Shown here: piece by piece, positions 28,848 to 58,640 of the stretch
How the letters are laid out: every line of letters begins with the position of its first letter
Position numbering within the stretch: the stretch's first letter is position 1
Assembly (NCBI RefSeq): GCF_014197435.1
Contig: NZ_JACIFP010000001.1
Coordinates: 248,001-312,000 of the forward strand
DNA: 64,000 bases
Direction of reading: 5' to 3'
Source: Gordonia humi
Lineage (GTDB): Bacteria; Actinomycetota; Actinomycetes; Mycobacteriales; Mycobacteriaceae
Notes under the pieces: generated by a model
Told to the model about the DNA's origin: nothing
What the model saw: the letters and a program-made list of their open reading frames with translations, nothing else
The model's database searches: none
Translations under genes and position numbers: made by a program

Positions 28848-28865
28848 ATAATTTAAAGTAGATTA
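28848..28865 (-). promoter_or_regulatory. AT-rich island operator, site 1 of 6
   Basis: On the minus strand it reads TAATCTACTTTAAATTAT, 16 of 18 positions matching TARTCTAAKKTMAATTAA, and is a near-palindrome around a single central base. It is 52 bp upstream of the hydrolase ATG at 28917 in a 35-bp block that is nearly all A/T, inside otherwise GC-rich DNA. See the finding on the shared motif. Confidence 0.55.
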
Positions 28866-28916
28866 TATTTATTGGCTGTCGCTCACCGAGCGAACGTCTT
28901 GACGGGAGAAGCACTG

Positions 28917-29921
28917 ATGACCCGTACCGACCCGATAGCGGCCGAACAGGTGGCCGACGGACTGTTCCGGATTCCGCTTCCTCTGCCCATGCCGGATCTG
29001 ACCGAGATCAACTCGTATGCGCTCGTCGATGACGACTCGCTGGTCCTGGTCGATCCCGGCTGGCGTGACGAGGAGAGCGAGCAGATCCTCCGTACCGCAT
29101 TGGCGCAGATCGACCGGACGCCTACCGACGTCAGCAGGATGCTGATCACGCACAGTCACTGGGATCACTACACTCGTGCCCTCGACTGGCAACAGCGCTA
29201 TTCGATACCGGTCCACCTCGGTCGCGAGGAACGCCACACGATCGAGAACTTCGACCTGCGCGACGGGTCGCATCCCGAGCAGGTGCGACTGCTGCGGGTG
29301 TCGGGAGCCGGCGAACTCGCCGACTCGATCGACAGTCTCCCGCTCGAGGCGTACGAACGCGATCACCTGTTCGGTCCACCCGATCACTGGGTCCATGACG
29401 GTCAGGTGCTCGACGGCGGAGCCCAGAGCATCGTCGCCCACGCCACCCCGGGCCATACCCGGGGTCACGTCGTCTACGAACTGCCCGGAGCCGGCGTGAT
29501 GTTCACCGGCGACCACCTCCTCCCCCGCATCACTCCGTCCATCGGTTTCGAGCGCGCACCGGAGACGTCGCCGCTGACCTCCTACTTGCAGTCGCTGCGG
29601 GTCTCGGCCGAGGCCCCCGCTCGTCGGATGCTGCCCGCGCACGGCGCCCTCACCGCGATGACCGACGCGCGCGCCCGCGAGCTGATCGCCCATCACGAGG
29701 CCCGCCTCACCGAGATCCGGTCGGCCATAGCGGCGGGCGCGACCACCGCCACCGATATCGCCGAGGGCATGCGGTGGACCAGGAGGAATCGCGCACTGCA
29801 CGAACTCTCACCCGTCCACGCGATGACCGCGATCCTCGAGGTTCGAGCGCACCTGCTGCATCTCGTGCGGCAGGGACGGCTCCGGGTCACCACGGGTGCG
29901 GTCGAAGCCTTTCGGATCTGA
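28917..29921 (+). CDS. Metallo-beta-lactamase-fold hydrolase, glyoxalase II-like
   Basis: 334 residues. ATG 28917 follows the ribosome site GGGAG at a good distance. The metal motif is HSHWDH (His79, His81, Asp83, His84), with later ligands in ATPGHTRGH, TGDHLL and PAHG. The C-terminal 70 residues form a winged-helix-like domain (ATDIAEGMRWTRRNRALHELSPVHAMTAILEVRAHLLHLVRQGRL) as in LACTB2-type thioesterase-like hydrolases. In a catabolic cluster such enzymes may hydrolyse CoA or other thioesters; this is inference. It carries one of the six shared AT-rich operators and ends at a bidirectional hairpin. Confidence 0.85.
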   Translation: MTRTDPIAAEQVADGLFRIPLPLPMPDLTEINSYALVDDDSLVLVDPGWRDEESEQILRTALAQIDRTPTDVSRMLITHSHWDHYTRALDWQQRYSIPVHLGREERHTIENFDLRDGSHPEQVRLLRVSGAGELADSIDSLPLEAYERDHLFGPPDHWVHDGQVLDGGAQSIVAHATPGHTRGHVVYELPGAGVMFTGDHLLPRITPSIGFERAPETSPLTSYLQSLRVSAEAPARRMLPAHGALTAMTDARARELIAHHEARLTEIRSAIAAGATTATDIAEGMRWTRRNRALHELSPVHAMTAILEVRAHLLHLVRQGRLRVTTGAVEAFRI

Positions 29922-29950
29922 AGCACCGCCCCGGACACGGTCCAGAAGAG

Positions 29951-29991
29951 TTCGGATCCGCGACTCCAGGCGAGGGAGTCGCGGATCCGAA
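29951..29991. terminator. Bidirectional terminator between the hydrolase and the aldehyde dehydrogenase
   Basis: Perfect 17-bp arms, TTCGGATCCGCGACTCC at 29951-29967 and the complement at 29975-29991, around the 7-base loop AGGCGAG, between convergent genes. Confidence 0.8.
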
Positions 29992-30041
29992 TCAGGTCGT
30001 ACAGTCGGCGAGCCGCCGCATCATCGATGAGGGGTCGGCCC

Positions 30042-31532: not shown

Positions 31533-31658
31533 CGTGTTCTCCTTGTGTTCGCGGCGCGGGAGACTTCGATCCAGAACGGCCCGATTCTCACTGTGACGCC
31601 GGTCATATCAACCTCGTGCAAGTCCATTATCGAGAGCACGAGTGCGGTCGGCTTGTAC

Positions 31659-31684
31659 GGGACGGCCAGGTCCTGGCCCGTCCC
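31659..31684. promoter_or_regulatory. Imperfect inverted repeat in the ALDH/IclR divergent region
   Basis: GGGACGGCCAGG-TC-CTGGCCCGTCCC, 12-base arms with one offset, between the divergent aldehyde dehydrogenase and IclR starts. IclR proteins often bind such repeats at their own promoters. Weak evidence without data. Confidence 0.4.
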
Positions 31685-31768
31685 GGCCAGGTCGGCGCCG
31701 AGCCGAGTCGCAGCGCTGCTCGACGCCCGATCCTGTCGATATCGGCCGATGTCGACGAGGAGATCATT

Positions 31769-32503
31769 GTGCTCAAGACCGTTCACCGCACGTCCCAGGT
31801 CCTGTCCCTGTTCACTCCGGACGCTCCCGAGTGGGGCGTCTCCGAAGTCGCGCGCCGCCTCTCAGTACCGAAGTCCAACACCCACGACGTCATGTCGAGT
31901 CTGACGGAGGTCGGGTTCCTACAGCGGACGTCGGCGGGACGGTACCGGCTGGGCTGGCGGTTGCTGTCCATGAGTCGGAGTCTGCTGGACAGTTCCGAGT
32001 TCGAGGTGCGCGCCGCACAGATCCTCCGGAAGCTGGCGACGGGCACCGGCCTTCCCGTGACCGTCGGGGTGTGGGATGGGCGCCGCGTGGTCAGCGTCGC
32101 CGGCGCCGGGCCGTCGCCCGGAACGGTGCTGCCCGCATTCTCGTCCGCACTGGGCAAGGCACTGCTGGCCCATCAGCCGTGGGACGACGTGCGTGCCGCG
32201 CTCGCGTCCACGACCGGGTCGGCACCTGTCTCGGCGGCCGACCTCTCCCGGCAGTTGGCCGAGGTGCGGCGGACCGCGGTCTCGCTCGACGACGAGGAGA
32301 CCGTGGCCGGACACTCCTGCGTCGGGACGGTGATCCGCAACGCAGGCGGCGAGGTGACGGCCGCGCTGTCGGTGTGCATGCCCGCCGAACGCATGAGGGC
32401 GCGGCGGCAGGACTACTCGTCACTGCTCCGTGGCGCGGCCGACGCGCTCTCGGTCACCCTGCGCCGCTCCGCCGTCCCGGCAGCGGTGCGGCCCACCGGC
32501 TGA
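31769..32503 (+). CDS. IclR-family transcriptional regulator
   Basis: 244 residues. The GTG at 31769 is preceded by GAGGAG at 7 bp, and it aligns with the start of the second IclR in this island (VLKTVHRTSQVLSLFTPDAPEWGVSEVARRL versus LSTVARTGRVLNLFTSDRPEWGVREAAEIL). A longer reading frame upstream has no homology. Residues 1-70 are the winged helix-turn-helix (VPKSNTHDVMSSLTEVGFLQ), the rest the IclR effector domain (ALGKALLAHQPWD, AALSVCMPAERM). The two IclR proteins are paralogues. It probably controls the divergent aldehyde dehydrogenase. Confidence 0.87.
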   Translation: MLKTVHRTSQVLSLFTPDAPEWGVSEVARRLSVPKSNTHDVMSSLTEVGFLQRTSAGRYRLGWRLLSMSRSLLDSSEFEVRAAQILRKLATGTGLPVTVGVWDGRRVVSVAGAGPSPGTVLPAFSSALGKALLAHQPWDDVRAALASTTGSAPVSAADLSRQLAEVRRTAVSLDDEETVAGHSCVGTVIRNAGGEVTAALSVCMPAERMRARRQDYSSLLRGAADALSVTLRRSAVPAAVRPTG

Positions 32504-33992: not shown

Positions 33993-34772
33993 TCACGCCG
34001 CGGAGATGCCCCCGTTGACGCTGATGGCTTGGCCGGTGAGTTTCGCGGCGGCCGGACCGGCCAGGAACACCACCAGCGCCGCGATGTCCGCCGGTTCCAC
34101 CACGCCCAGGTGCGCTTGTCTGGCCGCACCGGCGAAGAGCTTGGCGCTGAATCCCTCTCGCGTGATCCGCTCGGTGGTCGGGGTGCCTTGGATCAACGAC
34201 GGCGTGATCGCGTTGACCCGCACACCGCTCCGCTTGGCCTCCAACGCCAGCGCCCGGGTGAACATGACGATCCCCGCCATGCCCGCACCGAGCACCGTCT
34301 CCCCCGGAGTGGCCACCTTCGCCGCATCCGAAGCGATGTTGATGATCGACCCGGACTCCCGCGCATACATCCCCGGCAACACCAGGCGACTCGTGATCAG
34401 CGGTGCCAGCAGTTGCCCGCGCAGAGTCTGCGCGAACGACGCCGGATCCAGCTCGTGGAGCAGGTCCGGTACCCCGCTGCCCGCCACCGAGTTCACCAAG
34501 ACGTCGATACCGTGCATCTCGGACTCCGCCTCGGCGATGGCCGCGGTGATCTGTGGCAGATCGGCCGCGTCCGCGGAGACGGTGTGCACCGTCACCCGAC
34601 CGGCGCTGTCGCGGACCTGGTCGGCGACGGCCGCCAATCGGTCGGGCGACCGGGCGATCAATGTCATCCGCGGCACACCGGCTTCGGCCAGTTGGATGGC
34701 AGTCTGCACCCCGACTCCGGTCGATCCGCCGACGATCACGGCGCTGGACTCGTCGCACCGCTTCGCTGTCAT
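33993..34772 (-). CDS. SDR-family protein lacking the catalytic Tyr and Lys
   Basis: 259 residues with the Rossmann start AVIVGGSTGVGVQTAIQL, IDVLVNSVAGSG in place of NNAG, and IINIASDAAKV carrying the usual serine. Where the active site should read YxxxK (as in PGxxxYSASKAG), this protein has PGETVLGAGMAGIVMFTRALAL, so Tyr is Leu and Lys is Met. The later family blocks VRVNAITPSLIQG and GQAISVNGGISAA are intact, so the fold is kept. It probably binds a nucleotide but is not a standard dehydrogenase. Its ATG overlaps the stop of the small gene at 34769 by four bases. Confidence 0.85.
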   Translation of the reverse strand: MTAKRCDESSAVIVGGSTGVGVQTAIQLAEAGVPRMTLIARSPDRLAAVADQVRDSAGRVTVHTVSADAADLPQITAAIAEAESEMHGIDVLVNSVAGSGVPDLLHELDPASFAQTLRGQLLAPLITSRLVLPGMYARESGSIINIASDAAKVATPGETVLGAGMAGIVMFTRALALEAKRSGVRVNAITPSLIQGTPTTERITREGFSAKLFAGAARQAHLGVVEPADIAALVVFLAGPAAAKLTGQAISVNGGISAA

Positions 34773-34984
34773 CGGACCGCCCCGTTCGCCGCGCCCGCAC
34801 TCGACATCTCGCCGAGGTCCCGATCGAGGCTCTCGTGGCGATGGATCGGTGCGGGTCCGTTCCTACCGACGATCCGCTCGGGATGCGTCGCCTGACGTCG
34901 TGCATCGTCTGCGCTGGTAGTGGCCTCGGCGTCGCGTAGCGCGAACAACCGTGTGAGTGATGCCACCCGATCTGAATGATCCAT
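34769..34984 (-). CDS. 71-residue protein coupled to the atypical SDR, unknown function
   Basis: ATG 34984 follows a GGAGG site with 5-bp spacing. An ATG four codons upstream would remove this site. The protein is hydrophilic, with a short helix (RVASLTRLFALRDAEA) and then a low-complexity tail rich in His, Asp and Arg. I do not recognise it. It overlaps the SDR start as ATGA, and the shared operator motif lies 16 bp upstream, so it is the first gene of a two-gene operon. Possible partner or chaperone of the SDR-like protein. Confidence 0.6.
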   Translation of the reverse strand: MDHSDRVASLTRLFALRDAEATTSADDARRQATHPERIVGRNGPAPIHRHESLDRDLGEMSSAGAANGAVR

Positions 34985-34999
34985 GACCGCCTCCATTTT

Positions 35000-35018
35000 T
35001 AATCTATATTTCAAATAT
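35000..35018 (+). promoter_or_regulatory. AT-rich island operator, site 2 of 6
   Basis: TAATCTATATTTCAAATAT on the plus strand. It matches the shared motif at 16 of 18 positions if one extra base after TAATCTA is allowed. It lies 16 bp upstream of the 71-residue gene and overlaps the 3' end of the AraC gene. Weaker than sites 3 and 4. Confidence 0.4.
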
Positions 35019-36042
35019 CGATCGTATTACTCTCTGCCGGCGATGACCGCCGGGCCGGCAGACCGCCGCGACCGACTCGCCCCGCCACCCCGGCGTCGAG
35101 AGCGACGCCGTCCCTGGCGACGGCCCGCACCTCGCTGGGCGACTGCCCGTACTCCTCGGTGAAGCGCCGGGTGAAGTGGCTGGCGTCGGCGAAACGCCAT
35201 CGGTGGGCGATCGTCGAGATCGGATCGTCGGACGCGAGCAGTTGGCTGCGCGCACGGTCGAGCCGCAGGCGCCGGACATGGCGGGCGAACGAGTCGCCGT
35301 CGGCTCGATACAAGCGACTGAGGGTGCGCACCGATACGGCGTGGAACTTCGCCGCCACGGCAGGAGCGAGGTCGGCCTCGAGATTCCTCCGCACCCACTG
35401 GTCGATCTGGGCACGCAGTTCCCGAGACGGCGTCGGCCCACTTCCTGCACTGGTGCGCAGCACCGAGGTGAGCAACTCGAGCACGGCGTTTCGCGCCGCG
35501 GACACTTCCTGCGGGGCCATCGCAGGCAGCTCGTCCCACAACTGGGTCAGCAGGCCGCCGAGCAGCCACAGGGACGGAGTGCGCGGCAACGCCCTCGCCT
35601 CCATCTCGAAGGTGCGAACACCGATCGTCGCCAACAGCTCGCGTGGGATCAACAGGTTGCGCTTGCGCATGGGCCCGTGCACCGTGAAGGCGCTGCCCGA
35701 CCGGGGCTCCCACAGTGCCGCCTGGCCACCGGACAGACGGATCGTGTGGTCGCCGGAGGTGAATGACTCCTCACCCCGACCGACGAGGACGAGTGCCACG
35801 CAGTCGTCACCGGAGTCCCCCTGCCGGTGACGGCGACGAACGGTGCAGGAGGTGGTCGACAGGTCGATCAGACTCACATCGTCGAGTTCCCGCCGCGCAA
35901 GAAAGTTGGACTGGGTGAGGACCGGTTGGTCGGCGGGGCGCACGTCGACGTCCACGTAGCTCTGGGCCATCGCAGTTCGCCACCGATCGGCGCGCTCGGC
36001 CGTGTCCGGCACCGACATGTCATGAAAGTCCGTCTTAAGCAC
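35011..36042 (-). CDS. AraC-family transcriptional regulator
   Basis: 343 residues from a GTG at 36042 that has GGAGG four bases upstream; ATG 36018 is the alternative. Residues 10-210 are an AraC-binding-like effector domain (TDFHDMSVPDTAERADRWR, ALWEPRSGSAFTVHG). The C-terminal 100 residues carry two helix-turn-helix motifs, with LSRLYRADGDSFARHVRRLRLDRARSQL and ISTIAHRWRFADASHFTRRFTEEYGQSPSEVR. It is divergent from the CoA ligase at 36198, with a perfect 25-bp palindrome between, so it is a candidate activator of that ligase. Confidence 0.87.
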   Translation of the reverse strand: MLKTDFHDMSVPDTAERADRWRTAMAQSYVDVDVRPADQPVLTQSNFLARRELDDVSLIDLSTTSCTVRRRHRQGDSGDDCVALVLVGRGEESFTSGDHTIRLSGGQAALWEPRSGSAFTVHGPMRKRNLLIPRELLATIGVRTFEMEARALPRTPSLWLLGGLLTQLWDELPAMAPQEVSAARNAVLELLTSVLRTSAGSGPTPSRELRAQIDQWVRRNLEADLAPAVAAKFHAVSVRTLSRLYRADGDSFARHVRRLRLDRARSQLLASDDPISTIAHRWRFADASHFTRRFTEEYGQSPSEVRAVARDGVALDAGVAGRVGRGGLPARRSSPAESNTIDI

Positions 36043-36136
36043 CAAGCCTCCGTACAACGTTGCCGGGTCGTTCCGACTCGACACAGTCCTCATGCGATGC
36101 ACATCACCATGCCCCATGGGGACAGGCCCTGACCTC

Positions 36137-36161
36137 GCTTGTCCGGCACTGCCGGACAAGC
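36137..36161. promoter_or_regulatory. Perfect 25-bp palindrome upstream of a CoA ligase
   Basis: Two exact 12-base arms, GCTTGTCCGGCA and TGCCGGACAAGC, around one central C. It lies 37 bp upstream of the ligase ATG (36198) and 95 bp upstream of the divergent AraC start. A dimeric regulator such as IclR or TetR would fit better than AraC, which usually binds direct repeats. Confidence 0.65.
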
Positions 36162-36197
36162 AGGGTGGCAACCGGTCGCCGGTGCCACTATCTGCTC

Positions 36198-37753: not shown

Positions 37754-37789
37754 GGGGCCGCCGAACCCGATCAGTTCGTCGGCGGCCCC
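37754..37789. terminator. Bidirectional terminator between the CoA ligase and IclR
   Basis: GGGGCCGCCGA (37754-37764) pairs with TCGGCGGCCCC (37779-37789) around a 14-base loop, between convergent genes. It overlaps the last codons of the IclR gene. Confidence 0.65.
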
Positions 37790-38538
37790 GTGTCGGCGGG
37801 TCGCGACGCCCCGAGCGACTCGCTCAGCAACCGCGCGATTCCGCGGGCGGCCGCGCCGAACTCCTCGCGACGGACCGCGAATCGTTCCTCCGGCGCGGCG
37901 ACGGAGACGGCGGCGACCAGATCGGATCGGTGATACACACCGGTCGCGACGCAGTCGTACCCGGGCACGTACTCGGAGTGCTCATAGGCCATCCCGGTGC
38001 CCCGGATCGCCTCCAGCTGCCGCTCGAAGAACGGGACGTCGTCCACCGTCTCCGCGGTGAGCTTCGGCATGCCGAAGCGTGCGACGATGTCCTCCGTCGC
38101 GTCATCGGGCAGGCCCGCCATGAGCAGTTTGCCCAGAGCGGTGGCGTGGCCGGGCAGGATGCTTCCCGCCCGACAGTCGAGGGCTCCGCCGTGGGGGCCG
38201 GCGCACGCCACACAGACCACGTGCAGCCCGTCCCATGCGCCGACCGTGATGATCTCGCCGACGTGCGCGGAGAACCGGTGAACCAGGTGCTCGGCCTTCG
38301 CTTCCAGTCCCGAACCGCTGAGCAGATCGGAGCTCATGGTCAGCAGTCGCCAACCGAGTCGATACCGCCCGGCCGCGGTCCGGCGCAGCAGCCCGATCCG
38401 GGCCATGCTGGCCATGAGTTCGTGGGTGTTCGACTTCGGGAGACCGAGAATCTCGGCGGCTTCCCGCACACCCCACTCGGGACGATCCGAAGTGAACAGG
38501 TTCAGCACCCGCCCAGTGCGAGCGACGGTGGAAAGCAC
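37771..38538 (-). CDS. IclR-family transcriptional regulator, second copy
   Basis: 255 residues from a GTG at 38538 with GAGAGG upstream. Winged helix-turn-helix at residues 1-70 (LGLPKSNTHELMASMARIGLLRR) and an effector domain with ITVGAWDGLHVVCVACAGPH, GHATALGKLLMAGLPDD and GYDCVATGVYHRSDLVAAVSVAAPEER. It is paralogous to the IclR at 31769. It is convergent with the CoA ligase and lies 73 bp from the TetR gene on the same strand. Targets are unknown. Confidence 0.88.
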   Translation of the reverse strand: MLSTVARTGRVLNLFTSDRPEWGVREAAEILGLPKSNTHELMASMARIGLLRRTAAGRYRLGWRLLTMSSDLLSGSGLEAKAEHLVHRFSAHVGEIITVGAWDGLHVVCVACAGPHGGALDCRAGSILPGHATALGKLLMAGLPDDATEDIVARFGMPKLTAETVDDVPFFERQLEAIRGTGMAYEHSEYVPGYDCVATGVYHRSDLVAAVSVAAPEERFAVRREEFGAAARGIARLLSESLGASRPADTGPPTN

Positions 38539-39310: not shown

Positions 39311-39341
39311 GCGCGAGATTCTAATCGCCACTTGACAACGG

Positions 39342-39356
39342 CCGGGCATCGCCCGG
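39342..39356. terminator. Short hairpin after the ferredoxin reductase gene
   Basis: CCGGGC-ATC-GCCCGG, just past the 3' end of the reductase gene at 39374 on the minus strand and upstream of the TetR start. Could be a terminator or merely a stable stem in high-GC DNA. Confidence 0.4.
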
Positions 39357-40648: not shown

Positions 40649-40843
40649 TCAGTCGCGGACGATGCGCAGGGCCTCGGTGGGACAGCCCGCCACGGCCTCT
40701 TCCACCGACTGCAGTTCGCTCGGATCGATGTCTTCCTTCAAGAGTTCGAGATCGCCGTCGTCGTTGACCTCGAAGAACAGCGGCGCCAGCGACTCGCAGA
40801 TCCCGAGTCCCGTGCACTTGCCGTAGTCAACCGTTACCTTCAT
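40649..40843 (-). CDS. 3Fe-4S ferredoxin
   Basis: 64 residues. The cluster ligands are Cys10, Cys16 and Cys54 in CTGLGIC and GCPTEAL. Residue 13, which would be the fourth ligand of a 4Fe-4S site, is Leu, so a 3Fe-4S cluster is expected. Ferredoxins of this kind serve actinobacterial P450s and Rieske oxygenases. It lies between the FAD-dependent oxidoreductase and the reductase in one operon. Confidence 0.93.
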   Translation of the reverse strand: MKVTVDYGKCTGLGICESLAPLFFEVNDDGDLELLKEDIDPSELQSVEEAVAGCPTEALRIVRD

Positions 40844-42192: not shown

Positions 42193-42244
42193 GGATTCCT
42201 CCGGAAGTGGAAAGCGGTGGGCTGAAACGGTTCCGATGTCGCGG

Positions 42245-48314: not shown

Positions 48315-48315
48315 A

Positions 48316-49584
48316 TCAGGCCTCCATCAGTGCGCGGTACTGCTTCCAGAAGCCGCGCATTCCGGTCTCGTCGGTGGCCGCACCGATGGTGAAGCCGTCC
48401 TCGTCGGTCGTCTCGCGCACCAGACCTCTGCGGACGTCGAGCCACTCCGGATCGAGCATCGACACCCCTTGCTGATTGCGCTCGTACATCTCGGTGTCGT
48501 CGGCCAGCAACATGCCTGCCGGACCGACGGAGCCGATCGACTGCGAGATCATCCGGCGGTTCAGCTCCGCGCCGCCTCGCAGTTGCACGGCCGTCGCATA
48601 GGAGATGCACTCGTTCGCCGCGTTCGGCTGAATGTTGAACACCTGGATCTCGGCGATGAACAGGTTGGGGAAGATCATCACGTGCGGGGCGCCCTCGATC
48701 ATCCGCCGTTCGGCGTCCTCGCCATACGCCTCGCGCATCGCCGCGACGTAGTTCGGCACTCGCTCGGGCGTCGTCCCGAACCAGCGCATGGGCTCGGCGA
48801 ACTTGCGGAACTCCGGCCGCAGATCGTTCTCGCTGTGACCGTTTCCGAGTGCTCGGGTCACCGCTGTCGACGCGTCACTGTAGAGCGCGCCGATCGGGCT
48901 TCCCGTGACACCGAAGATCGAGCCGTGCACGAACTGCGGGTGGTATCCGTCGGTCTCGTTCTCGGCCAGGAACTTCCAGTTGGCACGAGTCTTGTGCGGC
49001 AGCCAACCCGCGTCGAGGGACACCTCCCCCTTCGGGGAGAGTCCGGCGAGTCGATCGATCTCGCCGGTGGCCGCACCGAGGTGTTCCAGCAGTGACGGAC
49101 CGTCGTCGGCCATCGAACCGAAGACGAATCCCCGGTAGCTCTCGACCCGCGGCACCTTGCCCATGCCCAGCTCGAGTCTGCCTTTGCCGCCGTACCCCTT
49201 GTTGTACGGATAGCCGAGCAGCTCACCTGAGTTGCGGTAGGTCCAGCCGTGGTACGGGCAGCGGAACGAACTCGAATTGCCCTTCTGGTCGTCGCACACC
49301 TGGAGACCTCGGTGGGCGCAACGATTGATCAGCAGGTGGATGTCGCCGTCACGGTCACGAGTCATCACGACGTCTTGAGTGGCCATCTGCTTGCGGACGT
49401 AGTCGTTCGGCTCGGGCACCTCGCTCTCGTGACCGACGAAGACCCAGGTCTTGAACCAGATCTTCGTGAGCTCCTCGGCGAAGATCGCCGGATCGGTGTA
49501 CAGCGAGCCGTGCACCTGCGACGGCCGGATCAGCTCCGACACCAAGCTCTTCGGGACCGCATCAGGATTGATGACAGTGGGCAT
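48316..49584 (-). CDS. Aromatic ring-hydroxylating dioxygenase, alpha subunit (Rieske)
   Basis: 422 residues from ATG 49584 with GGAGG at 6 bp. The Rieske cluster ligands are Cys89, His91, Cys109 and His112 (CAHRGLQVC, CPYHGW). The mononuclear iron site has Asp212 as the bridging residue, with His215 and His220 in ENETDGYHPQFVH. The third iron ligand lies in the C-terminal half. It belongs to the benzoate/biphenyl-like alpha family, inserting both atoms of O2 into a ring to give a cis-diol. It heads the operon alpha-beta-small-thiolase-HMGCS/DUF35-thiolase, with the shared operator 21 bp upstream. Confidence 0.95.
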   Translation of the reverse strand: MPTVINPDAVPKSLVSELIRPSQVHGSLYTDPAIFAEELTKIWFKTWVFVGHESEVPEPNDYVRKQMATQDVVMTRDRDGDIHLLINRCAHRGLQVCDDQKGNSSSFRCPYHGWTYRNSGELLGYPYNKGYGGKGRLELGMGKVPRVESYRGFVFGSMADDGPSLLEHLGAATGEIDRLAGLSPKGEVSLDAGWLPHKTRANWKFLAENETDGYHPQFVHGSIFGVTGSPIGALYSDASTAVTRALGNGHSENDLRPEFRKFAEPMRWFGTTPERVPNYVAAMREAYGEDAERRMIEGAPHVMIFPNLFIAEIQVFNIQPNAANECISYATAVQLRGGAELNRRMISQSIGSVGPAGMLLADDTEMYERNQQGVSMLDPEWLDVRRGLVRETTDEDGFTIGAATDETGMRGFWKQYRALMEA

Positions 49585-49604
49585 GATCAACCTCCGAATT
49601 TCAT

Positions 49605-49622
49605 TTAATTGAAATTAGATTA
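49605..49622 (-). promoter_or_regulatory. AT-rich island operator, site 4 of 6
   Basis: On the minus strand TAATCTAATTTCAATTAA, the best copy of the shared motif together with site 3. It is overlapped by AATTTCA/TGAAATT arms at 49597-49616. It lies 21 bp upstream of the dioxygenase alpha start and just after the preceding CoA-ligase gene, so the dioxygenase operon has its own promoter. Confidence 0.6.
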
Positions 49623-49628
49623 ACACAA

Positions 49629-51308
49629 TCAGAGCGACTTGGAAACCATGTCGACGAGCCGGAACTTCTGAATCTTGCCGGTCGGCGTGGTCGGCAGATC
49701 GTCGGCCTCGAGGAAGCGCACCAACTTGGGCACCTTGAACCGGGCAAGGTGCTTCTTGCAGTGATCGACCACCTGTTGTTCGGTGAGCTCGGCACCGGGC
49801 GACCGGACGATCACCAGTGCGCCGATCTCGCCCCAGCGGTCGTCCAGGATGCCGACGGCGAACGCCTGGCTCACCTCGTCGAGCCGGCCGATGAGGTCCT
49901 CGACCTCCTTGGGCATCACGAGTTCCCCGCCGCTCTTGTACAGTTCCTTGCTTCGACCGGTCACCTCGAGGTAGCCGTCAGGACGGACCCGGCCGAGGTC
50001 GCCCGAACGCAGCACACCGTCCGCGCTCAACGCCTCGGCGGTGGCCTCGGGCTTGTTCCAGTAGCCGACCATCATGGTCGGCCCGCGCGAGACCAGTTCG
50101 CCGGTCTCCCCCTCCGGTAGCGCCTCGCCGGTCACCGGGTCGACGACCGAGTACACGCACAACGCGTCGGTGCCTTCGACCCCGGCCGCGCCGGCCAACT
50201 TGGGCCGCCCGGCCGTGGTCGACGTCAGTTCCAGGGGATCTTCGGGAAGGGTGAGCGTCATGGCGCCACCGCATTCGGTCATACCGTATCCGGTGACGAT
50301 CTCGCTGACTCCGAAAAGTTCCTCGACCTTCTCCCACAGCCAGATCGGAGCGGGCGCCGATCCGCAGAGGATGCCGCTGAGCGAACTGATGTCGTACTCC
50401 TCGCGCGTCGGACACTCGACCATGCCCACGGCCATGGTCGGCACGCAGAGGATGTCGTCGGCCCGATGTCGCTCGATTCCGGCGAGGTACGCCTCGGGCG
50501 AGAACTTGGTCTGCAGGATGACCGCTCCCCCGACCATCGTGGCCGACAGGATTCCTTCGATGTAGCCGAACATGTGGTAGCAGGGCAACGAGAACAGAAT
50601 CCGTCGGCCGTCGTCGTACGCACGGGTCAGTGCGGAGGCGTAGCCGGTACGCAGCACCGCATCGTGGGTGACGACCACACCCTTGGGCGACCCCGTACTG
50701 CCGGAGGTGTAGAGCATGTCGCCGAGGTCGGACGGCTGATGTCCGCTCTTCGCAGCTCCTGGATGCTGTCGGCCCAGCTCCAACAGATCCTGGTAGGTGC
50801 GGGCGCCCTCTCGCCGACGTCTGTCCGTGGAGAGCACGACGACCTGAGTGAGCTCGCCGATCGTCGGCGCCGTCTCCCAGCCCGGCGTCAAGGTGTCGAG
50901 CATCTCCATGTAGTCCAGATTCGCGAATCCGGTCATGGTCAGCAGCATCGAGGCGCCGGACTGCTCCAGGACGTAGCCGAGTTCCTCCGCGCGGTAGAGG
51001 AAGTTGAACGGGATGGCGATCGCGCCGGTCCGCGCGATGGCGAATTTGAACGGAACGAACTCGCGATAGTTGGCCATCAGCATGCCGACGCGAGCACCCG
51101 GCTTCACGCCGAGTGTCACCAGTGCGTCCGCGAGGATCCGGGACTCCTCGGCGACCTCCGCGTACGACTGGGTCGCTTCATCGGTGATCACCAGTGGACG
51201 GTCCCCGTACTGTTCGGCGCACAGATCGAGCCATCCGTCGAGGGTCCTCGGCGTCCATTGTGGGAATCGCGCCGACAACGCGTCGCGACGCTGTTCGATA
51301 GTCTTCAT
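49629..51308 (-). CDS. Acyl-CoA synthetase (AMP-binding), second copy
   Basis: 559 residues from ATG 51308. The P-loop motif is LYTSGSTGSPKGVVVTH, the A5 motif GYGMTECGG, then SGDLGRVRPDGYLEVTGRSKELYKSGGELVMPKEVE and the end PTTPTGKIQKFRLV. It differs from the ligase at 36198 in motif details and shows the open-chain fatty-acid-like start. It is the last gene of the beta-oxidation operon that runs from 55.0 kb and ends just before site 4. Confidence 0.93.
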   Translation of the reverse strand: MKTIEQRRDALSARFPQWTPRTLDGWLDLCAEQYGDRPLVITDEATQSYAEVAEESRILADALVTLGVKPGARVGMLMANYREFVPFKFAIARTGAIAIPFNFLYRAEELGYVLEQSGASMLLTMTGFANLDYMEMLDTLTPGWETAPTIGELTQVVVLSTDRRRREGARTYQDLLELGRQHPGAAKSGHQPSDLGDMLYTSGSTGSPKGVVVTHDAVLRTGYASALTRAYDDGRRILFSLPCYHMFGYIEGILSATMVGGAVILQTKFSPEAYLAGIERHRADDILCVPTMAVGMVECPTREEYDISSLSGILCGSAPAPIWLWEKVEELFGVSEIVTGYGMTECGGAMTLTLPEDPLELTSTTAGRPKLAGAAGVEGTDALCVYSVVDPVTGEALPEGETGELVSRGPTMMVGYWNKPEATAEALSADGVLRSGDLGRVRPDGYLEVTGRSKELYKSGGELVMPKEVEDLIGRLDEVSQAFAVGILDDRWGEIGALVIVRSPGAELTEQQVVDHCKKHLARFKVPKLVRFLEADDLPTTPTGKIQKFRLVDMVSKSL

Positions 51309-51443: not shown

Positions 51444-52265
51444 CTAGGGAGTGTCGATCGCGGCTGTCGCGGCCGTCGCGCTCGACCCGAATCGGGCTGG
51501 ACGCTTCTCATGGAACGCGGCCACGCCTTCGGCGAAGTCGTCGCTGTCGAACAGCTCGACCTGGTTGCCGAGCTCACGCTCGAGGACCTCGGGTGTCATC
51601 GGCAGCGGATCGGCGAACATCGCCTTGATGACCCCGTACGCCCGCAGCGGCCCGCGAGCGAGCGTCTGAGCGTCGGCCAGGGCCGCGGTCAACGCCTCAC
51701 CGGCGGGGACCACGTTGTCGACGAGGCCGAGTTCGAGCGCTTCAGTGCTGGCGACGGCGCGCGGCATCAGCATGAGTTGGCGGGCGCGGGCCGGACCGAC
51801 GCGGGCGGGCAGGCTCGCGAAGATGCCCATGTCGCCCGCCAGCCCGACGCCGGTGAACGCTGTGGAGATCCGGGTGCCCTCGCCCGCGACGACGCGGTCA
51901 CAGGCCAGGGCGAGCGATGCTCCTGCACCGTACGCGGCGCCCTCGACCGCAGCGATCACAGGTTTCGGGGTGGCCCAGATCGCGCGAATGACACGTTGCG
52001 CCTTCTCGGTTCGCGGACGCGACTGCGCGGGCGGCATCCGGCGCATCGTCGAGATGTCACCGCCGGAGCAGAACACTCCGCCCGCGCCGGTCACGACGAT
52101 CGCCCGTACCGCATCGTCCCGCGCCGCACTTTCGACGGCCTCGGCGAGTTGCGTGCGCAACGGAAGGTCGATCGCATTGCGGCGCTCCGGGCGATCCAGG
52201 GTGATCAGCCGAACTGGACCGTGGTCCTCCGTGCGGACGACTCGTTCGGCATGCGGCCCGCTCAT
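51444..52265 (-). CDS. Crotonase (enoyl-CoA hydratase/isomerase), isomerase-type active site
   Basis: 273 residues. The oxyanion-hole motifs are GAGGVFCSGGD and GAAYGAGASLALACD. The catalytic region reads TGVGLAGDMG with Asp145, as in PaaG/enoyl-CoA isomerase proteins, instead of the two glutamates of classical hydratases. It should shift a double bond or open a ring in a CoA thioester rather than hydrate. Its ATG overlaps the next crotonase's stop by four bases. Confidence 0.9.
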   Translation of the reverse strand: MSGPHAERVVRTEDHGPVRLITLDRPERRNAIDLPLRTQLAEAVESAARDDAVRAIVVTGAGGVFCSGGDISTMRRMPPAQSRPRTEKAQRVIRAIWATPKPVIAAVEGAAYGAGASLALACDRVVAGEGTRISTAFTGVGLAGDMGIFASLPARVGPARARQLMLMPRAVASTEALELGLVDNVVPAGEALTAALADAQTLARGPLRAYGVIKAMFADPLPMTPEVLERELGNQVELFDSDDFAEGVAAFHEKRPARFGSSATAATAAIDTP

Positions 52266-53056
52266 GATCCGATGAACTTCGGAGCACGCCGCTCGATCAC
52301 GGCGGCGAGGCCTTCGAGGGAGTCCGCGGTTCCCGACAACTCGGAGACCACGCGGGCCTCCTCACCGAGGCGGGCCTCGACGGGGACGCCGATGCCGTCC
52401 CACACCAAGCGCTTGGTGGCAGCGAGGGCGAGCGGTGCCATCTCGGCGAGTCGGTGCGCGAGCTCGTCGACCCGGGAACCCAGCGCATCGTCGGCCACCA
52501 CTTCGCTGATCAGCCCGATGTCGAGCGCATCCGCGGCGGTCAGGGTCGGGTTGAGGAGCAGGATCTCCAGGGCCTTGCGCATACCGACGAGTTGGGCGAG
52601 GGTCACCGTCGTACCACCGTCCGGCGCCATCCCGACGCGGACCGCACCGGAGAAGAACTTGGCCGATTCGGCCGCGACCACCAGGTCGGCGGCACATACG
52701 AGTCCCAGTCCACCACCGCCGGCCGCGAAACCGTGGACTCCGGCGATCACCGGAACCTTCAGCCGCACCAGAGACGCCGTGGCGATCTGCAGCCAGGCGG
52801 TCGCCTCGCGCAGATAGTCGGGCAACCCGTCGCCCTTGGCCGCGAACGTCTTCACATCACCGCCCGCGCAGAAGTTCTTGCCTTCGCCGGTCAGCACCAC
52901 GACCCGCACGTCGCGCGAGCCGTGACAGGTGAGCACCGCGTCGTTGAGCGCTCGGAGCAGTTCGACGTCGAGTCCGTTGGCCGCTTCGGGGCGGTTGAGC
53001 GTGATGTGTCCGATCCCGTCGCGGATCTCGCAGAGTACTGGTGGCTGATCACTCAT
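52262..53056 (-). CDS. Crotonase, isomerase-type active site
   Basis: 264 residues from ATG 53056, which has a GGAAG ribosome site at 8 bp; a GTG three codons upstream overlaps the next gene but lacks a site. Oxyanion motifs GEGKNFCAGGD and GFAAGGGGLGLVCAADLVVAA. The active-site block is RVGMAPDGG with Asp146, an isomerase-like signature. It is the middle of three adjacent crotonases in one operon. Confidence 0.9.
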   Translation of the reverse strand: MSDQPPVLCEIRDGIGHITLNRPEAANGLDVELLRALNDAVLTCHGSRDVRVVVLTGEGKNFCAGGDVKTFAAKGDGLPDYLREATAWLQIATASLVRLKVPVIAGVHGFAAGGGGLGLVCAADLVVAAESAKFFSGAVRVGMAPDGGTTVTLAQLVGMRKALEILLLNPTLTAADALDIGLISEVVADDALGSRVDELAHRLAEMAPLALAATKRLVWDGIGVPVEARLGEEARVVSELSGTADSLEGLAAVIERRAPKFIGS

Positions 53057-53061
53057 TGGAT

Positions 53062-53823
53062 TCACTTCCGTTTGCTGAATGCGTCGACGCCGGCTCGTCC
53101 GGCCTCGCCGCCGATATGGTCGACGACGGCCTCGAGTTCGCTGTCGAGGCCGGCGTCCAGATGCTCGTCGAGTCTGCGGTAGACGAGCCGTTTGATTCCG
53201 AGAACGGCGTTGCGGTCCCGCCCGGCGAGCGTGGTGACGAACCGCTCGACCTCGGTGTCGAAGTCGTCGTCGGGCCAGCTCCGATAGGCCAGGCCCAGCG
53301 CCGCGGCATCGTTGCCGGACAGGCGATCACCGCTGAGCAGAAGCCCCAACGCCTGCTGACGGCCGACCAGTCGGGCCAGTCGCTGGCTGCTGCCGCCGCC
53401 CGGAATCTGTCCGAAGCGGATGTGGTTGTCGGCGATCCGCGCACCGTCGGCCACCAGGCACAGGTCTGCGGCCTGCATCAGTTCGAAGCCGCCCGCCATT
53501 GCGACGCCTTCGACGACCGCGATCACCGGTATCGGCGTCCGAGCGATCTCGCGGCACGCGTCGGAGAAGTTGACGAACAGTTCCCGCAACGCGTCCAGAC
53601 CCAGTGCGCGAAGCCGTTCCACTTCTGCGAAGTCGCCGCCGGCACAGAAGTTTCCGCCCGCACCGCGGATCACCATCACGGTGACCTCGGGGTCGGAGCC
53701 GAGTGCGGCGATCGCCTCGCGCAGTTCCCGACCCAGGTCGACGGTGATCGCGTTCATCTGTTCGGGACGGTTCAGCGTCACGACGCCGACGCCGTCGGCG
53801 ACCCGAGTGATCACGGCGGTCAC
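53062..53823 (-). CDS. Crotonase, hydratase-like with one glutamate
   Basis: 253 residues from a GTG at 53823 that overlaps the upstream SDR stop as GTGA. Oxyanion motifs GAGGNFCAGGD and GVAMAGGFELMQAADL. Glu114 corresponds to the first catalytic Glu of enoyl-CoA hydratase, but the second Glu region reads ADNHIRFGQIPGGG, so only one acid is retained. Hydration of an unsaturated acyl-CoA, or a related reaction, is likely. Confidence 0.88.
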   Translation of the reverse strand: MTAVITRVADGVGVVTLNRPEQMNAITVDLGRELREAIAALGSDPEVTVMVIRGAGGNFCAGGDFAEVERLRALGLDALRELFVNFSDACREIARTPIPVIAVVEGVAMAGGFELMQAADLCLVADGARIADNHIRFGQIPGGGSSQRLARLVGRQQALGLLLSGDRLSGNDAAALGLAYRSWPDDDFDTEVERFVTTLAGRDRNAVLGIKRLVYRRLDEHLDAGLDSELEAVVDHIGGEAGRAGVDAFSKRK

Positions 53824-54557
53824 ATCCCTCGCCCCCCGCCGACCTCGATGACCGCTCCGGTCACGTAGCTCGCCAGTTCGGAGGCGAGGAAGACCACGAC
53901 ACCGGCGACTTCTTCGGGCTCGCCGGCCCGTTGCATCGGGATCGTCGACTCGGTGGCGGCGAACGCCTCTGTGCTCATCGCGGCGGTCATCGGCGTCCTG
54001 ATGAGCCCCGGCTGCACCGCGTTGACCCGGATCCCGTGACGCGCCTGTTCCTTGGCCGAGGCCTTCGTCAGACCGACGATGCCCGCCTTCGCCGCGCTGT
54101 AGTTGGTCTGGCCGGGGTTGCCGATCTTGCCCGACATCGACGAGATGTTGATGATGCTTCCGCCGTGTCCGTACATGACGGCCGCGGCTTGCCGCACGCC
54201 GAGCCAACTGCCGCGCAGATGGACCCCGATCACCAGGTCGAAGTCGTCCACCGACATCTTGCGCATCGCGGCGTCTCGGGTGACTCCCGCATTGTTGACC
54301 CAGATGTCGATGCCGCCCCATTCGGCGACCACCGCGGCCGCGGCGTCGGCGATGTCGGACTCGGACGTGACGTCGGCCGCCACGCCCAGCGCGTCGTCAC
54401 CGATCTCGGCGGCGGCGACGCTCGCACGCTCGGAATCCAGATCCAGCAGTGCCACCCGAGCGCCGTGCCGGTGGAGTTCACGGGCGATCGCCAGGCCGAT
54501 GCCCTGACCGGCGCCGGTGACCACCGCGCGCCGACCGTCCAGCAGGCGGCCGGTCAT
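53820..54557 (-). CDS. Short-chain dehydrogenase (3-ketoacyl-CoA/ACP reductase-like)
   Basis: 245 residues from ATG 54557, overlapping the MaoC stop by four bases. Cofactor motif VVTGAGQGIGLAIARELHRHG, NNAG motif IWVNNAGVTRDAAM, catalytic serine in IINISSMSGKIG and the pair YSAAKAG. The C-terminus VTGAVIEVGGGRGM is a complete SDR end. It should oxidise a 3-hydroxyacyl-CoA made by the hydratases. Confidence 0.93.
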   Translation of the reverse strand: MTGRLLDGRRAVVTGAGQGIGLAIARELHRHGARVALLDLDSERASVAAAEIGDDALGVAADVTSESDIADAAAAVVAEWGGIDIWVNNAGVTRDAAMRKMSVDDFDLVIGVHLRGSWLGVRQAAAVMYGHGGSIINISSMSGKIGNPGQTNYSAAKAGIVGLTKASAKEQARHGIRVNAVQPGLIRTPMTAAMSTEAFAATESTIPMQRAGEPEEVAGVVVFLASELASYVTGAVIEVGGGRGM

Positions 54558-55006
54558 GCGACGTACCGCACGATCGATTCGACGACCACCGCGGGCTTCT
54601 CCGCGCCTTCGAGTTCGATCGTGGTGGCCAGCACGCCCTGCACCGCACCGTCGAGTGAGGTGACGTCGGCGACCACGCTGCGTGCGCGTATCCGCGATCC
54701 GGCGGGCACCGGCGAGACGAACCGAACCCTGCCGAGCCCGTAGTTGACCGCCATCGTGATGCCGCGCACCTCGTACAGTTCGTGCAGAAGGATCGGCAGC
54801 AACGACAACGTCAGAAAACCGTGTGCGACGGTGCCGCCGAACGGCCCGGCCTCGGCGGCCCGCTCGTCGACGTGGATCCACTGGTGGTCGCCGGTCGCGT
54901 CGGCGAAAGCATTGATCCGTTCCTGATCTATGACGACCCAGTCGGTCACGCCGAGATCACGGCCGGCTGCCTCCGCGAACTCTGCGATGCCCTCGAAAAC
55001 CTGCAT
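54554..55006 (-). CDS. MaoC-like (R)-specific enoyl-CoA hydratase
   Basis: 150 residues from ATG 55006 with GGGGAG upstream. The hot-dog fold carries the hydratase-2 motif FADATGDHQWIHVDERAAEAGPFGGTVAHGFLTLSLL, with the catalytic Asp and His. It adds water to a trans-2-enoyl-CoA with R stereochemistry. It is the first gene of the operon MaoC-SDR-crotonase-crotonase-crotonase-CoA ligase, all linked by short overlaps except before the ligase. It is divergent from the SDR at 55090. Confidence 0.92.
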   Translation of the reverse strand: MQVFEGIAEFAEAAGRDLGVTDWVVIDQERINAFADATGDHQWIHVDERAAEAGPFGGTVAHGFLTLSLLPILLHELYEVRGITMAVNYGLGRVRFVSPVPAGSRIRARSVVADVTSLDGAVQGVLATTIELEGAEKPAVVVESIVRYVA

Positions 55007-55034
55007 GTCACTCCCCAGCACTAGACTACGATTT

Positions 55035-55052
55035 GAATCAAAGCTAAATTAA
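55035..55052 (+). promoter_or_regulatory. AT-rich island operator, site 5 of 6
   Basis: GAATCAAAGCTAAATTAA on the plus strand, 15 of 18 matches to the shared motif. It is centred between the divergent MaoC (start 55006) and SDR (start 55090) genes, so one site could control both. Confidence 0.5.
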
Positions 55053-55089
55053 ATAATAGAAGCTGTCAACGACACGTAACGGAGCGGAC

Positions 55090-55893
55090 ATGAATCTCGG
55101 ACTCGACGGCGCACGGGTGCTGATCACCGGCGGCGCGTCCAATATCGGGCGCGGCATCGTCCATGCCTTCGCACGGGAAGGGGCACGAATCGCGCTCTCC
55201 GACATCGACGAGAAGCAGGCACGGCGAGTCGAGCGGGAGGCCCGAGATCTCGGCGCCGCCGAGGTGCTCGTCGTCGCCGGAGATCTGACCGAACCGGGAA
55301 TGGGTGCGACCGCCGTCGACGCCGCCGCCAAGGCGTTCGGCGGTGTGGACGCACTGGTCAACAACGCGGGCTGGAGTCTCGGCGAATTCCTTGCCCGAGA
55401 CGATGATCGGGCCCGCTGGCAGAAGCTCGTGGACATCAACCTGTTCGCCACCATCGAGACGACCCGAGCGGCGATCGCCGCGATGCGGGCCGCCGAGTCG
55501 GGCGGCGGTTCCATCGTCACCGTCGCCAGCGAGGCCGCCTTCGGCCAGATCCGTCAGGGCGTGTACGGAGCGACCAAGGCGGCTCAGGTCGCCCTGGCCC
55601 GGACGGCCGCCCGCGAGCACGGCCGACACGGCATCCGATCCAATGTCGTCTGCCCCGGCCTGGTGATCCCGGAAGGTCCCGAAGCCGTCGGAGACGACAG
55701 CCTGTGGTCCGGCGGAGCAGATTCGGTGTTCAACGAGAATCAGATCGACTACCTGCTCAAGGACACCCCGCTCGGCAGGCTCACCCTCGCAGAGGACGTG
55801 GCCGACGCCGTCGTCTGGCTGAGTTCGGATGTCGCCGCCCGGCAGATCACCGGGCAGTTGATCTCCGTCAGTGGCGGATACACGATGCCCTGA
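55090..55893 (+). CDS. Short-chain dehydrogenase/reductase
   Basis: 267 residues. Cofactor motif VLITGGASNIGRGIVHAFAREG with an acidic SDIDEKQ suggesting NAD preference, NNAG motif LVNNAGWSLGEFLARDD, catalytic serine in VTVASEAAFG and YGATKAA. The end reads ITGQLISVSGGYTMP. The catalytic residues are all present, in contrast to the SDR at 33993. It is divergent from the MaoC operon and shares its promoter region. Confidence 0.92.
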   Translation: MNLGLDGARVLITGGASNIGRGIVHAFAREGARIALSDIDEKQARRVEREARDLGAAEVLVVAGDLTEPGMGATAVDAAAKAFGGVDALVNNAGWSLGEFLARDDDRARWQKLVDINLFATIETTRAAIAAMRAAESGGGSIVTVASEAAFGQIRQGVYGATKAAQVALARTAAREHGRHGIRSNVVCPGLVIPEGPEAVGDDSLWSGGADSVFNENQIDYLLKDTPLGRLTLAEDVADAVVWLSSDVAARQITGQLISVSGGYTMP

Positions 55894-57297: not shown

Positions 57298-57304
57298 CGG
57301 CGCC

Positions 57305-57338
57305 CGAGGGACGGTGATCAGGAGATCACCGTCCCTCG
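57305..57338. terminator. Bidirectional terminator after the CoA-transferase
   Basis: CGAGGGACGGTGATC (57305-57319) pairs exactly with GATCACCGTCCCTCG (57324-57338) around the 4-base loop AGGA, between convergent genes. Confidence 0.85.
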
Positions 57339-58564
57339 AACGCGGGACGCTCCTTGTTGAGGAACGACGTGACCGCATGCTGCGCATCGTAGGTCCCACC
57401 AGTGTCGACGATGCCCTCGGATTCTGCGCGCAGTTGGTCGGACAAGGTCCGTCCCCAGGACTCGCGCAGGAGTCGTCGTTGACGTCCGTACGCGAGGGTC
57501 GGGCCGGTCGCCAGCTTCTCGGCTTTCGCGAGCGCGTAGTCACGGAGTTCCTCGGCGGGCACGATCTCGGCGACCAGGCCCCAGTCCTGCGCGGTCCGCA
57601 CGTCGACGCGCAAGTTCTCCAGGTACATGCGCCGGGCCCGTGCCTCCCCGACGATCCGGGGAAGATGCCACGTGCCGCCGCCGTCGCCGGACAGGCCGAT
57701 ACCCGAGAACGCGGTGCAGAAGATCGCACCCGGTTCTGCCACCACGACATCGGCCGCATACACGAACCCCAGCCCACCGCCCGCCGCGGAGCCCTGCACC
57801 GCTGTGACGACAGGGCAGTCGAGCCTCTCCAGAATCCGGAAACCCTCATGGAACGGGTCCGTCATCCGCGCGGCGAGCGCTCCGATCCCCCCTGCAGGCG
57901 CCCTCGTGAAGTACTCGATGTCTCCGCCGACGGTGAGCGCCGGTCCGTTGCCCGCGATGAGCACCGCACGCACGGCGGGGTCCGCAGCGATCGCTCGCGC
58001 GACGGTCAGCCATTCCCCGGCCAGCCGCAGATCGATCGCGTTTCGCTGCTCGGGCCGGTTGAGAATCACCCGCGCGACGCCCGCCGCGACCGAATAGTCG
58101 ATCGTCTCGAGGCTCTGGAGATCGGAGCCCGGGTGCGCCGGGACCGCGGCCCTCTCCGCACCCGCGACGGCGGCAGCCCACACCGCGGTGTCGGTCAGCT
58201 GTCGCAGTGCCGATATGCGGCCGTTCTCATCGAAGGTCACCGTGTGGACGAACGCGGCGTCCACCCGTCGTCCGGTACGCCGGGCCGAACCCCGGTACCA
58301 GCCCGAGACCTCGACGCGATGCTCATCGATCGGATCCATGGACGTGGGTTCGGCCTGCAGCGCGAACGCACGACCGATGGCCCACCAGAAGTCGTGGATC
58401 ATCGCGTCCGGTCCGTGGTACTCCCCGCCGAGACCCAGGGGCAGTCCCGCCGCGGTCCGCCCGACGAAGTCGTCGCTGAGGAGACGCGAAACAGCTTGTG
58501 CGTCACCGGCTGCCAACGATCTGTACAAGGTGGAGAGAACCTCACTACGCGATTGATCACTCAT
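57326..58564 (-). CDS. Fusion of a SnoaL/NTF2-like domain with a crotonase domain
   Basis: 412 residues. Residues 1-130 are an NTF2/SnoaL-like cone (LSTLYRSLAAGDAQAVSRLLSDDFVGRTAAG, VHTVTFDENGRISALRQLTD). Residues 152-412 are a crotonase with oxyanion motifs GNGPALTVGGD and GSAAGGGLGFVYAADVVVA and an isomerase-type block FSGIGLSGDGGG carrying Asp294. The fused order is unusual. SnoaL-like domains act as ketosteroid-isomerase-like or cyclase enzymes, so a two-step isomerisation on one chain is conceivable. It has its own promoter with the shared operator 59 bp upstream. Confidence 0.88.
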   Translation of the reverse strand: MSDQSRSEVLSTLYRSLAAGDAQAVSRLLSDDFVGRTAAGLPLGLGGEYHGPDAMIHDFWWAIGRAFALQAEPTSMDPIDEHRVEVSGWYRGSARRTGRRVDAAFVHTVTFDENGRISALRQLTDTAVWAAAVAGAERAAVPAHPGSDLQSLETIDYSVAAGVARVILNRPEQRNAIDLRLAGEWLTVARAIAADPAVRAVLIAGNGPALTVGGDIEYFTRAPAGGIGALAARMTDPFHEGFRILERLDCPVVTAVQGSAAGGGLGFVYAADVVVAEPGAIFCTAFSGIGLSGDGGGTWHLPRIVGEARARRMYLENLRVDVRTAQDWGLVAEIVPAEELRDYALAKAEKLATGPTLAYGRQRRLLRESWGRTLSDQLRAESEGIVDTGGTYDAQHAVTSFLNKERPAFEGR

Positions 58565-58622
58565 CGTTCGGCACTTCCCTCGTCTCGACGGTGATGGGCG
58601 GATTCTCCGACCATCATAGAAT

Positions 58623-58640
58623 TGATTTTAACTTATATTC
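58623..58640 (-). promoter_or_regulatory. AT-rich island operator, site 6 of 6
   Basis: On the minus strand GAATATAAGTTAAAATCA, 14 of 18 matches to the shared motif and the weakest ungapped copy. AATTGA and TCAATT arms flank it. It is 59 bp upstream of the SnoaL-crotonase start in an AT-rich patch. Confidence 0.45.

Follow-up and report, generated by a model that had tools for sequence, protein, structure and literature searches.

A conserved 21-bp palindrome in a catabolic gene island of Gordonia humi as the putative operator of a TetR-family regulator

Introduction

The TetR-family repressors KstR and KstR2 of mycobacterial cholesterol catabolism control several operons of a coenzyme A (CoA)-dependent ring-degradation island through one palindrome, with TnnAACnnGTTnnA as the KstR operator and AnCAAGnnCTTGnT as that of KstR2. 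Here we describe a stretch of 64,000 nucleotides from Gordonia humi (contig NZ_JACIFP010000001.1, positions 248,001 to 312,000; hereafter the window), part of a 5.09 Mb genome, in which a catabolic gene island at 28-59 kb carries a palindromic motif at several operon starts together with the gene of a putative TetR-family repressor at 38612-39349 (TetR 38612). A preliminary description of this DNA had reported six AT-rich sites sharing an 18-bp near-palindrome, and had proposed that one regulator, most simply TetR 38612, controls the island. TetR repressors of catabolic islands are a kind of system already known. Our literature search, which covered neither subscription papers nor regulon databases and cannot establish absence, found this operator, regulon or regulator described in none of the matches listed.

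TetR 38612 matched KstR2 in structure, at 17-18% identity, and also by sequence among PDB chains (E 2e-10). The island motif differs from the KstR and KstR2 operator sequences given above. The KstR equivalog model, with its cut-off of 280 bits, gave TetR 38612 a score of 21 bits and so rejects it as a KstR, and no KstR2 model matched it, the KstR2 model not having been scanned singly. The best PDB sequence match was the second half of Mce3R from M. tuberculosis (E 5e-15). According to PMC11667970, Mce3R is a fused double TetR with 25-bp non-palindromic sites, whereas TetR 38612 is single and its candidate motif is a symmetrical palindrome; with one TetR_N and one TetR_C_24 domain in 245 aa, and not two fused units, it is not an Mce3R. 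FadR (Bacillus), PfmR (Thermus) and AibR were among the nearest folds at 16-22% identity, and their pathways differ.

The island itself resembles two described clusters. The dit abietane cluster holds the same enzyme kinds. The ipfABDEF ibuprofen cluster, likened by gene kind (partly after PMC9195938), shares with the island a CoA ligase, Rieske oxygenase alpha and beta subunits, an SCP2-type thiolase and its OB-fold partner, all of which we found within one cluster in the window. Beyond the ipf and dit sets the island has an acyl-CoA dehydrogenase (ACAD), three hydratases, a MaoC-type hydratase, a short-chain dehydrogenase/reductase (SDR) and a CoA-transferase. PMC9195938 reports no regulation of ipfA expression by ibuprofen.

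Results

The shared motif proved to be real, but as a palindrome of 21 bp about a 3-bp centre rather than as an 18-mer. Sequences read at the six reported sites reproduced the match counts given for them. The window has eight AT islands (30 bp with 70% AT or more), six of which are these sites. The operator consensus is TYKAATYTAWNWTARATTMRA, built from 135 distinct sites (four from the window, the rest from relatives), with TYKAATYTA as the half-site. With two successive search patterns, TRATYTA-NNN-TARATYA and then KAATYTA-NNN-TARATTM, we reached orthologous clusters in further genera of the same family. The half-site spacing looks strict: 166 sites had a 3-bp centre, against 0-2 for any other centre length between 0 and 12 bp (2.34 Mb, 88 sources), in a count where the half-sites were learned from 3-bp sites and the other centres were tallied only away from such sites. 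A short palindrome with fixed half-site spacing is also what marks a TetR-family operator. The sequence of one genome (G193, locus L074; 41% GC, 144 AT islands) was left out of the site, spacing, regulator and promoter counts because it is probably a foreign contig.

Five of the six sites (28848, 43509, 49605, 55035 and 58623) are firm members of the motif, and each stands at an operon start, with the dyad 30-113 bp from the likely start codon. Operator 1 (28847-28867, dyad 28857) lies 60 bp upstream of the probable start (ATG at 28917) of a metallo-beta-lactamase (MBL)-fold hydrolase gene, and operator 2 (43508-43528, dyad 43518) precedes a row of genes for the ACAD, a FAD-dependent oxidoreductase, a small open reading frame (ORF), a reductase and TetR 38612. 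Operator 3 (49604-49624, dyad 49614) is found 30 bp upstream of the ATG of the gene for the Rieske oxygenase alpha subunit, operator 4 (55033-55053, dyad 55043) between two divergent genes, MaoC at 37 bp and SDR2 at 47 bp, and operator 5 (58622-58642, dyad 58632) 68 bp before a SnoaL-like/enoyl-CoA hydratase fusion gene. Scored with a matrix made from 131 sites of other genomes, the window sites being held out, the five islands peaked at 20.4, 21.0, 24.0, 23.0 and 21.5 bits, respectively, while the best score elsewhere was 4.9 (400 kb from 20 other places in the genome).

AT-rich promoters in general do not match the motif as these five sites do. Fifteen AT islands in the 400-kb background peaked at most at -0.8 bits, and the other two in the window at -2.4 and 0.6 bits. 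The 18-bp consensus of the preliminary description, scanned with D at one K position and up to three mismatches allowed, gave seven matches in the whole genome, which all fell on four of the six sites; the reversed-pattern control gave two genome matches and window shuffles gave none. The preliminary description had proposed that hits should be confined to the island, and this held for all four matches of our refined pattern, and for three of the four of an earlier, slightly different recast pattern with one mismatch, the remaining one lying at 3.43 Mb.

Related loci gave a similar picture. We counted 97 matches in 42 of the 75 Rieske-cluster loci whose DNA was outside the first matrix, and none of 300 palindromic matrices with shuffled columns reached this number on the same loci (mean 2.1, maximum 42). 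Across all 80 loci there were 108 matches, compared with 2 in one Markov shuffle per locus. These loci are mutually related (L083 and L084 are near copies), and the seed matrix came from a scan that included the window sites, making all these chance tests independent of the tested DNA and not of the motif discovery.

Conservation in orthologous clusters was observed for the five firm sites, both in these locus matches and at aligned promoters, so that neither of the two refuting outcomes named in the preliminary description was seen for them. The promoter count covered 19 contig sets, the window not included, and recorded sites in the 300 bp ahead of each aligned start, with rows below 45% identity (37% for TetR) left out. 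Sites preceded 10/10 homologues of the MaoC gene, 11/14 of SDR2 and 5/8 of the SnoaL-hydratase gene, followed by ACAD (5/11), the ferredoxin-like ORF (5/13), the reductase (4/14) and the ligase ACS2 (3/13). They preceded a single homologue each of MBL (1/2), ECH1 (1/14), ROa (1/15) and ECH3 (1/15), and were found before 6 of 31 TetR homologues, G031 supplying one of the six. None occurred at 85 places before six inner genes (LTP 0/16, OB 0/15, thiolase 0/13, ROb 0/15, ECH2 0/15, AO 0/11), nor upstream of the CoA-transferase (0/3). The site goes with operon starts, and these appear to shift between species. Sites near MBL homologues were seen in G201 (57% identity, 124 bp) and G218 (42%, 78 bp). 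Motif matches were observed in Gordonia, Nocardioides, Nocardia, Mycobacterium, Amycolatopsis, Streptomyces and others.

Loci L144-L154 are from Alphaproteobacteria (Xanthobacter, Azorhizobium, Pseudooceanicola and others) with an oxygenase at 58-60% identity, and no motif was seen in the loci scanned. G248 (L147) had two motif matches in its genome as a whole, and L151, within this range, is an actinomycete with one match.

The sixth site, at 35000-35018, is doubtful. It consists of two good half-sites that fit only with a 4-bp centre (34998-35019; 15.1 bits, as against 4.7 as a normal 21-mer), leaving its normal membership unsupported, and we found no orthologous promoter at which it could be compared. 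In relatives the sole other strong site with a 4-bp centre was L103:6854 (16.2 bits), against 166 normal sites. Nor does it stand directly before the SDR gene as had been reported: its dyad lies 25 bp before an intervening 71-aa ORF that is coupled to SDR1.

Some operators appear to be doubled. Second palindromes offset by 5 bp were found 43 times around the 135 sites, compared with 7.4 expected from shuffled flanks (21 and 22 on the two sides, with 3.8 and 3.6 expected), so that at most one third of sites have one and at least two thirds are single. Operator 5 is overlapped by weaker palindromes 5 bp to each side (matches at 58617 and 58627). The arrangement looks as if two dimers could bind one site, similar to the dimer-of-dimers operators of CprB and QacR; CprB is a precedent for two dimers per site (PMC4150764).

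Five regulators are encoded in the island region, namely TetR 27956-28669, IclR 31616-32503, AraC 35011-36171, IclR 37771-38538 and TetR 38612-39349. Homologues of TetR 38612 at 40% identity or more were present in 16 of the 19 contig sets and those of each of the other four in 0/19; the contig sets lacking it were short contigs from G032 (two) and G027 (one). Among 201 family genomes, 11 had the TetR (E up to 1e-35), and the motif was observed in all 11 of these and in 23 of the 190 without it (Fisher 7e-10, uncorrected for ancestry). The 23 include the fragmented genome G032, which has cluster genes and a site before ACAD. The TetR-bearing genomes held 36 matches in total (reversed control 0) and the other 190 held 30 (control 19), most of which look like chance given that control. 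Thirty-three of the 36 were within 50 kb of the TetR gene, with the rest at 52 kb, on another cluster contig and at 165 kb.

The same association was seen in 50 named genomes bearing the oxygenase, where the motif occurred in 35 of the 37 whose TetR reaches 50% identity, compared with 4 of 13 others, or in 38 of 44 with any TetR match at E 1e-35, compared with 1 of 6. These genomes held 163 motif matches (control 4), and among the 75 matches listed, 67 share a contig with a TetR match. In G031, which has no close oxygenase in its genome, a TetR homologue (group II, see Discussion) has a site 70 bp upstream, and the motif is therefore tied to the TetR apart from the pathway. The window genome has no close second copy of TetR 38612 (next 25% identity, all 133 candidates scored). 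The proposal that this one regulator controls the island is thereby supported, as it is the only window regulator conserved with the clusters and co-occurs with the motif.

TetR 38612 matched the TetR_N helix-turn-helix family (PF00440, 49.8 bits, cut-off 24) and TetR_C_24 (PF17932, 51.9 bits, cut-off 26.4). Its AlphaFold2 model (mean pLDDT, the predicted local distance difference test score, 83.3) contains helices only, as in the ligand domain of the TetR fold, and lies near PfmR, DarR, FadR, KstR2 and AibR. The best structure matches listed were TetR-type regulators by title, except for 4mxm/4mo7 ("superantigen PfiT", elsewhere Transcriptional regulator I2). By their PDB titles, FadR was solved with stearoyl-CoA and AibR with isovaleryl-CoA, which suggests by analogy a CoA-thioester ligand for TetR 38612.

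The island as a whole encodes a Rieske oxygenase, two CoA ligases, thiolases and the MBL hydrolase, as well as an SCP2-type thiolase with an OB-fold partner, an ACAD, hydratases, MaoC, SDRs and a CoA-transferase, and it probably degrades a ring-shaped acid. Pfam and literature searches for its substrate returned ipf- and dit-like gene kinds and no substrate. Among its named relatives, the Rieske oxygenase is closest to that of Gordonia asplenii (86% identity). At the left end the MBL-fold hydrolase occupies 28872-29921 on the plus strand as the longest ORF, with its ATG candidate at 28917. SDR1 (33993-34772) is overlapped at its start by the end of the upstream 71-aa ORF (34769-34984, minus strand), which has GGAGG in front, lies downstream of the doubtful sixth site and shares an ATGA overlap of its stop with the SDR1 start.

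From TetR 38612 to the last enoyl-CoA hydratase-type gene all the genes placed here are on the minus strand. TetR 38612 (TetR_N and TetR_C_24 by Pfam) is the final gene of the ACAD row and is preceded by a ferredoxin-reductase-type flavoprotein (39374-40618), a 64-aa ORF (40649-40843) labelled ferredoxin in the preliminary description and adjoining the reductase in several relatives, a FAD-dependent oxidoreductase of the amine oxidase/CrtI superfamily (40879-42384), and the ACAD (42245-43453 as the longest ORF, ATG candidate 43405). The next genes are an SCP2-type thiolase homologue (43600-44799), a ChsH2-type OB-fold protein (44796-45300, the 3' part of a longer open frame at 44796-46541 and of uncertain start), an acetyl-CoA acyltransferase (thiolase, 46193-47401), the Rieske oxygenase beta (47775-48314) and alpha (48316-49590, ATG 49584) subunits, an acyl-CoA ligase (49629-51308) without a site of its own in the window, and three enoyl-CoA hydratase-type genes (51444-54321). 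The MaoC-type hydratase (54554-55021, minus, ATG candidate 55006) and the SDR2 dehydrogenase (55090-55893, plus) are divergent, and the SnoaL-like/enoyl-CoA hydratase fusion is at 57326-58564 (minus).

Outside the island, ABC transporter genes and an NMT1-like protein (23643-26423, minus) adjoin it, with no site of 12 bits or more there. The AT island at 19337-19372 is a terminator-like inverted repeat (ACATGTAAAGAAA...TTTCTTTACATGT) without an operator, and that at 62938-62986 (0.6 bits), before Peripla_BP_2 and FecCD genes, also has no operator and is possibly the site of another regulator.

Discussion

We consider it very probable, on comparative sequence evidence, that the five firm sites are operators of one local regulator, TetR 38612, and that this TetR switches the pathway, because the palindrome is conserved in relatives and tracks the TetR gene. 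In the mechanism we propose, a TetR dimer would bind the 21-bp palindrome with one recognition helix per half-site, near the core promoter, and would repress the hydrolase, ACAD, Rieske oxygenase, MaoC/SDR and SnoaL-hydratase operons; dyads 25-113 bp before the likely start codons would suit repressors that act by blocking the core promoter. In the row from ACAD to TetR 38612 the ORFs overlap or lie at most 35 bp apart, with the TetR last, and therefore operator 2 should control TetR 38612 itself, which would then repress its own gene row. Several of PfmR, DarR, FadR, KstR2 and AibR respond to CoA-thioesters. As these are among the nearest folds, the inducer is most likely a CoA-thioester from the pathway; binding of such an intermediate to the C-terminal domain of TetR 38612 would derepress all operons together.

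Several observations weigh against this proposal. Conservation is weak before the oxygenase alpha gene (1/15) and the ligase (3/13), and for 25 of 31 TetR homologues the 300 bp upstream contain no site. Two genomes (G222, G230) have a TetR above 50% identity and no motif at one mismatch, while four (G231, G237, G238, G248) have the motif with a distant TetR or none. Shared ancestry is partly behind the co-occurrence and the Fisher tests ignore it, no more than 13 candidates per genome were scored to call the TetR absent from family genomes, and the 50% identity threshold was picked after the table had been inspected. Many relatives have two TetR paralogues, making the binding paralogue there ambiguous. 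Binding, repression as opposed to activation, autoregulation and the class of ligand are what we infer.

The proposal can be compared with four other accounts of the same sites. One of them takes the likeness of the sites for a by-product of AT-rich promoters in GC-rich DNA. It could draw on six of the window's eight AT islands having been the input, but this reading is almost certainly wrong: orthologous positions are conserved, and for the five sites AT-richness as the cause was ruled out by the low-scoring background islands and by the failure of the AT-preserving permuted matrices. It is also highly improbable that the motif is a promoter element, either an AT-rich -10 region or the site of an alternative sigma factor, and not an operator. 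The motif contains TAATCT, which we take to resemble the actinobacterial -10 box, and its dyads are 25-113 bp from the start codons. Against this, both halves are palindromic about a 3-bp centre in 166 sites, one site can be common to divergent genes, and the motif is missing from 15 other AT islands of the genome and tracks one TetR gene.

A different protein might also bind the sites. All four other regulators of the window are in or beside the island, IclR 37771 being downstream of TetR 38612 on the same strand, and A/T-rich palindromes are bound by some IclR proteins according to PMC8222616; the two main IclR consensuses given there are unlike the operator motif, however, and none of the two IclR, the AraC and the other TetR is conserved with the clusters at 40% identity, in contrast to TetR 38612, which makes them very unlikely candidates. 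A regulator encoded elsewhere in the genome, with TetR 38612 only travelling with the cluster, has a small but somewhat larger probability, as the TetR and cluster genes are co-inherited and co-occurrence alone therefore cannot separate regulator from passenger, and one match of the earlier pattern lies outside the island (3.43 Mb). Such a global factor should, however, leave many sites elsewhere, whereas the refined pattern stayed within the island, matches in the 190 TetR-less genomes (30, control 19) were far closer to their control than those in the 11 TetR-bearing ones (36, control 0), and the TetR homologue of G031 has its site with no close oxygenase.

Assignment of the operator makes a defined regulon of an island that had no annotation, and provides it with a named regulator gene, an exact operator and a class of inducers that can be tested; such clusters occur in many genera of actinobacteria. 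As a mark of pathway membership, the operator can indicate which neighbouring genes belong to the pathway, for example the hydrolase. It could help in finding the substrate, and would serve as a ready biosensor part.

The TetR proteins of relatives appear to fall into two groups. In an alignment of 18 homologues from 10 genomes, judged by eye, the groups differed in and after the recognition helix (AELQAPAIYYYF versus forms such as AELRAPAVYYYF or ADVRTPGVYYYF). Both were present in 6 of the 10 family genomes (e.g. L040, L044, L051), while the window genome has group I only, and among the 44 named genomes that had a TetR match, 35 had at least two. Because many clusters hold groups I and II with similar recognition helices and one operator class, we tentatively raise a two-input pathway switch, in which two sensors would bind different ligands, or hetero- or tetramers would form on the palindromes overlapping by 5 bp, with the window genome as a reduced single-sensor form, although we regard this as rather doubtful.

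One relative (G191) encodes a double TetR at L039:6144-7352, with two TetR_N stretches and one TetR_C_24 in a layout like that of Mce3R, and this gene adjoins the group I TetR orthologue.

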